Assembly: GCA_017465145.1 (NCBI GenBank)
Contig: JAFTWU010000010.1
Span: forward strand, 1 to 64,000
Source: Clostridia bacterium
GTDB lineage: Bacteria; Bacillota; Clostridia; Christensenellales; Borkfalkiaceae
Length of the DNA stretch: 64,000 nucleotides
Direction of reading: 5' to 3'
This document shows, in pieces, positions 16,440 to 60,844 of this stretch (the first letter of the stretch is position 1; each line of letters opens with the position of its first letter). A program made the translations under genes and the position numbers. Under the pieces are notes generated by a model, which worked only from the letters and a program-made list of their open reading frames with translations, made no database searches and had not been told where the DNA came from.

Positions 16440-16635
16440 GTGAAACGTGCGGAAAAAGTATTTTTACTACCGAAGGAGTAACACTCTCAGGTGCACTAGA
16501 CAGTGTAAGGACCGTTCGTTGATGGCTTTCTGGAGAATCTCAAAACAGTTGAGTACCGAAGGGGCAAAAACCAAAAGAGCATAGAAATATGAATTGCGGT
16601 TTAATCTCTCAGGTAAAAGGACAGAACTTATAGTT
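16440..16635 (+). promoter_or_regulatory. Tandem glycine riboswitch
   Basis: Two consecutive aptamers are recognisable. The first contains ACCGAAGGAGTAA and CTCTCAGGTGC...AAGGAC (about 16445-16515). The second contains CTGGAGA, ACCGAAGGGGCAA and CTCTCAGGTAAAAGGACAGA (about 16530-16630). This is the classical cooperative glycine riboswitch. It precedes an amino-acid symporter and is followed by a terminator hairpin, so glycine probably allows read-through. Confidence 0.92.
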
Positions 16636-19437: not shown

Positions 19438-19599
19438 TTACTTTTTAAGTTTAGAAAGTTCTTCCATTTTCATTTTTGCGGCTTTTTCTACTTCTGCTTG
19501 ACCTTCTTTAACAAGGTCGCGTGCCTTTACTGAATTAGTAACCAAAAGAGCACCGCCAAGCATACCTAAAATTACACCGCATAAAAATTTTTCGCCCAT
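19438..19599 (-). CDS. Small YtxH-like membrane-associated protein
   Basis: A 53-residue frame with ATG at 19599 preceded by AAAGGGGG eight bases upstream and followed by a terminator. The N-terminal segment M-G-E-K-F-L-C-G-V-I-L-G-M-L-G-G-A-L-L-V is a single glycine-zipper-like membrane helix; the rest is a charged amphipathic helix rich in Lys and Glu. This is the layout of YtxH/YtxG-like small proteins, whose role is not well established. Good signals at both ends support it as a real gene. Confidence 0.75.
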   Translation of the reverse strand: MGEKFLCGVILGMLGGALLVTNSVKARDLVKEGQAEVEKAAKMKMEELSKLKK

Positions 19600-26943: not shown

Positions 26944-26959
26944 GTTTTACCTCCTTTTG

Positions 26960-27110
26960 AGTTTGAAAAAAGCCCTTGCACCAAAACGGATGCAAGGGCA
27001 TAATAACCTTAAAACTAAAGTTAATAAAATGCTTACTAAAGCTTCCGCCTCGGTTGGTCCGCATCACTTAAGTAATGCAAGTTAACACCTACTGTCTTGG
27101 GCTATTAAGT
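26960..27110 (-). promoter_or_regulatory. L10 leader (ribosomal protein autoregulatory RNA)
   Basis: On the minus strand the leader contains CCAAGACAGTAGGTG followed by the CCAACCGAGGCGGAAGC segment, recognisable as the Firmicutes L10 leader that binds the L10-(L12)4 complex. It ends in a terminator hairpin (26965-26999) upstream of rplJ. Confidence 0.85.
26965..26999 (-). terminator. Attenuator hairpin of the L10 leader
   Basis: GCCCTTGCA / TGCAAGGGC arms, followed on the minus strand by a TTTTTT tract before the rplJ ribosome binding site. Confidence 0.85.
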
Positions 27111-27122
27111 TTTTACTTGTTG

Positions 27123-43202: not shown

Positions 43203-43313
43203 ATAGACTCTTTTCCCATCCGGACTATAACCGTCGGTTTCGGAATTTAACCGAATCAACCCTAAAAGAGTTCGCAGACTATACTGCCGATAGGGAATTT
43301 CACCCTGCCCCAA
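43203..43313 (-). promoter_or_regulatory. FMN riboswitch (RFN element)
   Basis: The minus strand reads GGGGCAGGGTGAAATTCCC, then ATCGGCAGT, then CCGAAACCGACGG and AGTCCGGATGGGA, all hallmark RFN blocks in the right order. It controls ribU and represses it when FMN is plentiful. Confidence 0.95.
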
Positions 43314-43325
43314 AGAATCAATTAT

Positions 43326-59488: not shown

Positions 59489-59920
59489 CTAGTTTTGAGC
59501 CAAATATTTTTCCGTTATAGTGGCGGCGATAGAACACAATTCTCCACACGGGCGCTTTTTATAATATTCCTCCGTTCTAGCATCGGGTACGGGTGATTTA
59601 TCTGCAGTAACACCTTCTAAAAGTTCGGCACAAATTATAGAGCCCGTTTCCTTTTTGAAATCTGCACACGCCTTTTGAATTACGCTATAAATTGCAAGTT
59701 TATCTTGCCCGTCTGACAAAAGGTAACTTAGCACCATACACATACCTGAAACGGCACCGCAAGTTAGCCTTTGCCTACCTAACCCACCGCCAAAGCCGAT
59801 GGAGAGTTTTTTAAGGTCATCTACCGATAACCCCATTTCATCTTTGAAAGCAAGAACTACTGCTTGGCAACAGTTTAAACCACTATTAAAATTTTGCAAC
59901 GCTATTTCAGATTTAGTCAT
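59489..59920 (-). CDS. C_GCAxxG_C_C family redox protein
   Basis: A 143-residue protein with the cysteine pattern that names the family: N-C-C-Q-A-V near 17-22, G-F-G-G-G-L-G-R-Q-R-L-T-C-G-A-V-S-G-M near 42-60, a later C-A-E-L-L near 98-102, and R-P-C-G-E-L-C near the C-terminus. Such proteins are thought to bind metal or take part in electron transfer in anaerobes; the precise role is unknown. AAAGGAAAC before the ATG at 59920 sets the start. Confidence 0.85.
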   Translation of the reverse strand: MTKSEIALQNFNSGLNCCQAVVLAFKDEMGLSVDDLKKLSIGFGGGLGRQRLTCGAVSGMCMVLSYLLSDGQDKLAIYSVIQKACADFKKETGSIICAELLEGVTADKSPVPDARTEEYYKKRPCGELCSIAATITEKYLAQN

Positions 59921-60141
59921 AAGTGTTTCCTTTGTTTTTAATATAATACCATAGTAATGGTTTATACGCAATAGGTAATTTAAAATTTAACTTTTGTGCT
60001 ATTTACTAATCTATTTAATAAATTAAATATAAAGCGCACGCCCGCGCAGTATAAATGTTGTTATGGAATTGAGTAAAAAGACCGAAAAAGTGATTTAAAA
60101 ATTCAAAAAGCAAAGACGCGCGGTTTTTACCCTTTAAAATT

Positions 60142-60266
60142 CAAAAAGCAATAAACACTGTTTACTGCTTCCTGAATAATATATGATAAGGGGGAAAATG
60201 ATGAGCTTTTTATAGTCTTGGGAACTTTATGTCCCACGACGACAACGAAACTTTCTGTCCGTTGAC
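60142..60266 (-). ncRNA. Candidate small RNA, about 125 nt, with a C-rich segment
   Basis: In a 628-base stretch without a convincing gene, a minus-strand promoter is followed about 100 bases on by a strong intrinsic terminator (AGCAGTAAAC / GTTTATTGCT, 60147-60169, then TTTTT). Between them lie two copies of GGACANAAAGTT (60249-60260 and 60223-60234), a hairpin with GGGA/TCCC arms, and a probably single-stranded TTTTCCCCCTT (60188-60198) complementary to Shine-Dalgarno sequences. No known RNA family recognised. The opposite strand offers only a five-codon frame. Confidence 0.55.
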
Positions 60267-60290
60267 AATAATAATATACAACTTTATACA
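60262..60290 (+). promoter_or_regulatory. Plus-strand promoter overlapping the sRNA promoter
   Basis: TTGACA (60262-60267), 17-base spacer, TATACA (60285-60290). A transcript would run through about 200 A+T-rich bases without a gene to the terminator near 60.5 kb. Confidence 0.45.
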
Positions 60291-60301
60291 CCTTTTGTAA
60301 A
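60273..60301 (-). promoter_or_regulatory. Promoter of the candidate sRNA
   Basis: Minus-strand TTTACA (60296-60301), 17-base spacer, TATATT (60273-60278). Confidence 0.6.
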
Positions 60302-60547: not shown

Positions 60548-60844
60548 TTATTCACCCTTGAAAGGCAATAAGTCAACAAGTCTAGCACGTTTGATAGCTT
60601 TTGCTAAAACACGTTGGTGTTTTGCGCATACGCCGGTCATACGTCTAGGAAGAATTTTACCACCTTCAGCAACGTACTTTTTCAAAGTGTTGATATCCTT
60701 ATAGTCGATAGCATCAACTTTTGCTTGACAGAAAGCACAAACTTTTCTGCGGGGAATTCTTTTTACAAACTTTTTACCTTCTCTAGCTGCGGGAGCGGCA
60801 GTAGCTGCTTCTGCAACGGGGGTTACGTTGGTATTTTCTTCCAT
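60548..60844 (-). CDS. rpsR: 30S ribosomal protein S18
   Basis: A 98-residue S18. An Ala/Thr-rich N-terminal extension of about 25 residues precedes the core. The core has C-A-F-C (36-39) and a later G-V-C-A-K-H-Q (about 71-77), the zinc-binding C+ form, and ends [10 protein letters not shown]. Last gene of the rpsF-ssb-rpsR operon. Confidence 0.96.

Follow-up and report, generated by a model that had tools for sequence, protein, structure and literature searches.

A predicted small RNA with a nearly invariant segment antisense to the translation initiation region in a clostridial order

A gene-free gap separates the ribosomal protein S18 gene (rpsR, 60548-60844) from a gene for a C_GCAxxG_C_C protein (59489-59920) in a Clostridia bacterium of the family Borkfalkiaceae, raising the question of whether the gap encodes an RNA and how such an RNA might act. 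The window considered here is the whole analysed stretch of 64,000 nucleotides (contig JAFTWU010000010.1, forward strand). From its sequence, the gap had been proposed to hold a small RNA with an anti-Shine-Dalgarno (anti-SD) C-rich segment, and this original prediction is supported by the transcription unit, its strand, its conservation and its antisense relation to the initiation region.

The unit in the window

On the minus strand of the gap, a mechanical list of open reading frames (ORFs) contains only frames of 54 and 58 amino acids (aa). The same strand carries a sigma-70-type promoter, a body of about 125 nt and an intrinsic terminator, and the original prediction was correct in their position and in each of these elements (Table 1). 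Folding of positions 60266-60141 (126 nt) gave -35 kcal/mol, compared with -19.3 +/- 3.0 kcal/mol for dinucleotide shuffles (z -5.3). The predicted fold consists of two 5' hairpins, around 38 unpaired nucleotides in the middle and, ahead of the U-runs, a terminator hairpin of 16 pairs.

Table 1 Features of the small-RNA locus and of a candidate target in the window
Feature	Position	Strand	Remarks
Sigma-70-type promoter	-35 TTTACA 60301-60296; -10 TATATT 60278-60273	minus	17-nt spacer
Predicted small RNA	60136-60266	minus	Length ~124-131 nt; predicted start near 60266, 7 nt past the -10 box; predicted end from the U-runs
Variable 5' part	60215-60266 (hairpins 60266-60241 and 60240-60215)	minus	Two hairpins; carries both GGACANAAAGUU repeats
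Two GGACANAAAGUU repeats	60260-60249 and 60234-60223	minus	Within the two 5' hairpins
C-rich core, GCUCAUCAUUUUCCCCCUUAUCAU	60206-60183	minus	24 nt, unpaired, nearly invariant; antisense to SD (AAGGGGG), 6-nt spacer, AUG, AGC
C-rich segment, UUUUCCCCCUU	60198-60188	minus	Inside the core
Intrinsic terminator	60136-60176	minus	16-17-pair hairpin, loop AGU, then UUUUU and UUUU
Partial second copy of the terminator 3' half, TTTGCTTTTTGAATTTTTAAA	60094-60114	minus	Apparently a remnant of downstream modules
53-aa protein gene, candidate target	19438-19599	minus	SD AAGGGGG 19612-19606; predicted pairing

Conservation, distribution and transcription signals

Using the unit as a blastn query, 41 of the 43 other congeners gave a match (E <= 4.9e-18), and the two without one, G027 and G035, are 58%-complete assemblies. 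Most of these alignments do not cover the whole RNA: the 5' hairpins differ by species, while GCTCATCATTTTCCCCCTTATCAT is the same or nearly the same throughout. In more distant families, the terminator sequence is altered as well, and core, promoter and terminator are kept in most copies. The two GGACANAAAGUU repeats emphasized by the original prediction are present in the window but, judged by eye, absent from most relatives' copies, and they are thus local parts of the hairpins rather than a functional part of the RNA.

Allowing up to three mismatches, the core was detected in 102 of the 297 genomes sampled from the order (0 with a reversed-pattern control). At least three of these are false: two correspond to gene starts (G146 and G220), and G142 lacks a terminator and scores 8/12 for the promoter; the remainder were inspected in part. 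An exact scan of named genomes returned at least 120 stretches, and the carriers among the matches listed are Borkfalkia, Pumilibacter intestinalis, Christensenella, one Roseburia metagenome-assembled genome (MAG) and many uncultured Clostridia; in the NCBI taxonomy, Borkfalkia belongs to Christensenellales and Pumilibacter to Eubacteriales. A match in Ruminococcus bicirculans (L147), with a best promoter score of 7/12 and no terminator, was rejected as a member and dropped from the counts. Outside the order, 12 matches were found in 372 sampled genomes of the class, and in ten of them an ORF of at least 40 aa starts at the predicted AUG, i.e., they are gene starts read backwards. Two of the 12 (L450 and L457) pass both lax rules (promoter 9/12; hairpin and T-run), L451 passes the terminator rule only, and none reaches a promoter score of 10/12; L450, L451 and L457 are gene starts with ORFs of 225, 502 and 179 aa, respectively. 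The two matches that are not gene starts, L444 and L449, have neither promoter nor terminator signal. Since the matches are either gene starts or devoid of signals, none in the 372-genome sample qualifies as a convincing member outside the order. As for an origin in mobile elements, the exact core was absent from the viral contigs searched, and the window RNA gave no plasmid match.

To describe the transcription signals, we collected 202 copies that have full flanks and match the 19-nt core exactly, omitting divergent cores and L147, and reduced them to 150 non-redundant copies (>15% flank difference). Promoter-like sites were scored out of 12 over 150 nt upstream on the RNA strand and over 90 nt only on the opposite strand, while a terminator was defined as a hairpin of <= -8 kcal/mol followed by a T-run downstream of the core. 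A promoter-like site of at least 9/12 is present in 148 of the 150 copies (mononucleotide shuffles, 62.6; opposite strand, 33, over 90 nt as against 150 nt in sense) and one of at least 10/12 in 115 (shuffles, 11.4; opposite strand, 8). A terminator on the RNA strand is found in 147 copies (shuffled, 38; opposite strand, 46), and in 145 copies it occurs together with a promoter-like site of at least 9/12. The original prediction had staked itself beforehand on conservation of the C-run and the terminator, and both proved conserved, in 41 of 43 congeners and, for the terminator, in 147 of 150 copies. In terminators of the genus type, the six pairs of the variable stem part are formed in 39 of 40 copies, and the third stem pair is A-T in 23, T-A in 14 and G-C in 3 of these 40, i.e., it shows compensatory changes. 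The gene unit and its strand are almost certainly real.

In 111 copies that could be folded, the predicted RNA is 72-183 nt long (median 110). Its 5' part, 8-96 nt long, differs in sequence and length between species, and a 5' hairpin of <= -3 kcal/mol is predicted in 94 of these copies. The core itself is mostly open, with a mean unpaired probability of 0.82 and values above 0.8 in 64% of the copies. A direct repeat of the box GTCGAA, with one unit inside the promoter spacer and the other at the presumed start site, was seen in 13 of the 150 copies (40 of the 150 being of the genus type), for example L027, L030 and L032, and is a possible operator.

The location of the unit between rpsR and the C_GCAxxG gene may suggest a cis-acting leader or 3'-UTR element of a neighboring gene, and certain neighbors do recur: among 123 copies, a gene that we take by recognition to be spmB-like is a near neighbor in 27 loci and a presumably spoIIE-like gene in 10. 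A Gate domain was confirmed in the spmB-like neighbor, the sole domain confirmation for these neighbors. Yet, a cis-acting element is highly unlikely, as 145 of 150 copies have a promoter-like site and a terminator of their own, and the neighboring genes differ between lineages and lie in both orientations (123 copies). A link to sporulation is not claimed; SpoIVA is too common, being present in 246 of the 297 genomes of the order, to serve as a discriminator.

Some genomes have multiple copies, with six matches in G088, four of them arranged as two close pairs. Nearby duplicate cores were also seen at L061, L062, L090 and L160 and in G338, G194 and G270, with diverged 5' parts where these were read. 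In addition, one to three tandem modules of ~145-155 nt lie 3' of the RNA terminator in some congeners (L070, L071, L024, L019, L022, L031 and L038). The modules have the layout CTGCTTCCTTCTCCTCCGCT..CTACGGAGCACTAG.CCGTCAAG..GTCGTGCAG followed by a further copy of the same terminator, and they contain a second CU-rich, anti-SD-like stretch. Rfam gave no match for the modules at three of these loci, and the exact module motif was not seen in long stretches of the own genome (G000) or of G003.

The antisense core and its candidate targets

The complement of the core, AUGAUAAGGGGGAAAAUKAUGAGC, consists of an SD (AAGGGGG), six bases, AUG and AGC. For the A form of the core, the complement outscores 97.8% of 864 own initiation regions, and 0.28% of shuffles reach its score; for the C form, the corresponding values are 74.7% of 864 and 4.9%. 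Because the complement scores highly against both own regions and shuffles, the core is antisense to a good initiation region. The C-rich antisense segment of the original prediction is thus present, but it extends over ~25 nt rather than 11 and also spans the spacer, the AUG and the second codon. Conservation inside the 19-nt core is by construction, as the collection demanded an exact core. The adjoining G, C and A are conserved at 0.91, 0.95 and 0.99, respectively, in the 150 copies; these positions were fixed by no exact search, though copies obtained by blastn or the mismatch search may lean toward them. The main variable position of the core is C or A (CAUCAU or CAUAAU) and corresponds to the base just before the AUG in the complement.

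A convincing initiation region in the complement could also mean that function resides in the plus strand, where the conserved stretch would provide a tiny ORF (ATG AGC ...) with its ribosome binding site and start. This is barely credible, as a position-wise table shows no conservation past AUG-AGC, and that strand has promoter-like sites in 33 of 150 copies (over 90 nt) and terminators in 46 of 150, around the shuffle level, compared with 148 and 147 on the RNA strand.

As an SD variant, AAGGGGG is readable through a G-U pair with CCUCC of the ribosome; the 3' end of the own 16S rRNA did not turn up in the own-genome stretches covered. Among 1137 own initiation regions, GGGGG serves as SD in 65 and GGAGG in 119, and the longer forms AAGGGGG, AAGGAGG, AAGGAGA and AAAGGAG occur 30, 36, 136 and 116 times, respectively, so that AAGGGGG almost equals AAGGAGG in frequency in this genome. 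In other species bearing the RNA, GGGGG precedes the start of 37 of 820 genes. This abundance of GGGGG SDs, the complementarity of the core to a consensus initiation region rather than to any one gene and the several copies in genomes such as G088 would suit a global damper of translation, in which the RNA forms weak duplexes with a great many initiation regions, acts as a decoy of the 16S rRNA 3' end and sets the overall initiation capacity. However, AAGGGGG is rarer than AAGGAGA or AAAGGAG, and genome-wide pairing of own initiation regions with the core is only slightly better than controls: duplexes of <= -14 kcal/mol form with 232 of the 1137 regions, compared with 156 +/- 45 when the core is fully shuffled and 176 +/- 35 when its flanks are shuffled and the C-run is kept (highest of 20 such runs, 248). 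A global damper is therefore regarded as improbable.

Individual targets may be sought among the best duplexes. The 53-aa gene at 19.6 kb, described as YtxH-like and named as an example target in the original prediction, ranks second of the 1137 own initiation regions by duplex energy (-27.4 kcal/mol), while its product has no Pfam or NCBIfam match. The gene has a match in 38 genomes of the genus. Of the 36 that were read, 34, including the own genome (33 of 35 congeners), have a GGGGG SD although the flanking leader diverges, a figure for which no RNA-less congener serves as control and in which the species are not independent. Among orthologue pairs of the own genome and G003, GGGGG is kept in 8 of 24, including the 53-aa gene and with a few doubtful starts, and GGAGG in 30 of 40. 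Outside the genus, five orthologues were readable: GGGGG is present in G050, which lacks a significant match to the RNA by blastn (E 0.22), and absent in G046, G048, G055 and G056, all of which carry the RNA by blastn. As none of the four RNA-bearing orthologues has GGGGG and the one from G050 has it, the gene is unlikely to be a target beyond the genus.

HslU, SpoIIID and an EF-G-like gene were chosen for their high rank among the 1137 predicted duplexes, and all three were rejected as order-wide targets. GGGGG precedes HslU in 0 of 30 and the EF-G-like gene in 1 of 16 read, with 14 weaker matches outside the count. For SpoIIID, it was found in 7 of 20 genomes with the RNA and in 9 of 25 without a core match, and because of the latter the signal is independent of the RNA. 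Taken by itself, GGGGG before the SpoIIID start in 16 of 45 read (L460-L479 and L510-L534) is well over the background of 37/820. Long near-perfect targets were likewise not obtained, as the core pattern with up to three mismatches on both strands returned mainly the RNA itself. Long complementarity to the core was seen at starts of genes that are presumably Hsp20-like (two genomes) and DUF2804-like (one). No conserved order-wide target is established among the candidates tested.

Given this, and pairing barely over controls, the core could instead be mainly a protein-binding site, the RNA sequestering or delivering an RNA-binding protein that recognizes unpaired UCAUNAUUUUCCCCCUUAUCAU, with its likeness to an anti-initiation segment being secondary. 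The ~25 nearly invariant nucleotides are more than a pairing seed alone would obviously need, which favors a protein site and counts against the antisense reading. Still, a protein site would not require SD, spacer and AUG to appear in antisense at natural distances, and the main variable position is the very base before the AUG; this explanation is considered unlikely.

Known regulatory RNAs and the proposed mode of action

None of the Rfam 15 covariance models exceeded its gathering threshold at the window site or at eight relative loci. The best match in E-value mode, to a plastid psbA 3'-UTR model, falls on the terminator at 28.4 bits (threshold, 55.8) and was dismissed as chance or terminator-like. 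Elsewhere in the window, an FMN riboswitch (43204-43321, minus), a glycine riboswitch (16520-16634, plus) and an L10 leader (26957-27119, minus) lie above the Rfam thresholds. A narrow text search of the open-access literature found neither the core (16-17 nt) nor its complement. With its own promoter, intrinsic terminator, intergenic location, non-coding body and an unpaired and conserved C-rich segment, the RNA has these features of the general kind of anti-SD C-rich trans-acting small RNAs. For pairing with target mRNAs and their repression, duplex energies and SD conservation gave a mixed picture.

In layout, it closely resembles the CiaR-dependent csRNAs of streptococci, which belong to a different class of bacteria. 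As described for csRNAs, an unpaired anti-SD and anti-AUG segment lies between a 5' stem-loop and the terminator, some csRNAs have the terminator stem only, and S. pneumoniae has five similar copies (PMC3091779). The shared anti-SD and anti-start-codon segment points to a shared way of working, not to descent. The CiaR site given for csRNAs (TTTAAG-N5-TTTAAG; PMC3091779) was found in 0 of 150 copies within 150 nt upstream when one mismatch was allowed, and the conserved nonamer [A/C]UCCUAAA[A/C] given in the same source is, by eye, absent from the window RNA, whose own antisense segment is nearly invariant across families.

In RsaE/RoxS and FsrA, a C-rich unpaired region is described to pair with the SD and block initiation (PMC5419742, PMC9410917, PMC4132741). 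The window RNA shares such a region, but it has one long antisense segment including the AUG and second codon, and no Rfam match. It also lacks the several C-rich regions of RsaE/RoxS, its body having a single C-run of at least four. For LhrC1-5 of Listeria, which is multicopy, and IsrR of staphylococci, CU- or C-rich single-stranded motifs are described to pair at or near the SD (PMC4132741, PMC9410917, PMC5419742). There, the C- or CU-rich motifs number three and are short, redundant and in part located in loops, whereas here one continuous 25-nt segment is present; judged by Rfam only, no sequence relation was detected. The best reading is that the RNA would work like csRNAs or RsaE/RoxS, without a detected sequence relation to them.

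The locus is thus probably an independent gene whose RNA product acts in trans as an antisense inhibitor of translation initiation. We infer that the RNA is transcribed, that it pairs with mRNAs and represses them, and that its targets are several mRNAs rather than one. The RNA would be made from its own housekeeping-type promoter and end at the intrinsic terminator, and the usually present 5' hairpin and the terminator hairpin would flank the ~25-nt core and keep it open. The core may then pair with the initiation regions of mRNAs with a G-rich SD (AAGGGGG rather than AAGGAGG): CCCCC would lie opposite the SD and the U-rich stretch opposite the spacer, with CAU and GCU pairing with the AUG and the second codon, respectively. 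Binding of the 30S subunit would be blocked and translation lowered, probably followed by decay of the mRNA.

A nearly frozen 25-nt antisense segment for which no frozen target was found is an unusual combination. It could be speculated that the RNA is a frozen, universal anti-start RNA of the lineage that tunes all mRNAs with a G-rich SD together, though this is rather doubtful. Here, a single A-to-G change in the SD (AAGGAGG to AAGGGGG) would place a gene under control of the RNA, and target membership would evolve by such single SD mutations, so that the RNA stays frozen while no target is conserved.

For the antisense RNA more generally, the core is far more conserved than the hairpins or the neighborhood, which points to strong selection on one antisense stretch. 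The RNA appears to form a family absent from Rfam 15 that occurs across several families of a mostly gut-dwelling clostridial order, and the GGGGG SD variant is predicted to mark its regulon. Pumilibacter intestinalis CLA-AA-M10, whose copy (L106) shows a promoter and a terminator by eye, is listed as a strain rather than a MAG, so that a test of this regulon should be feasible.
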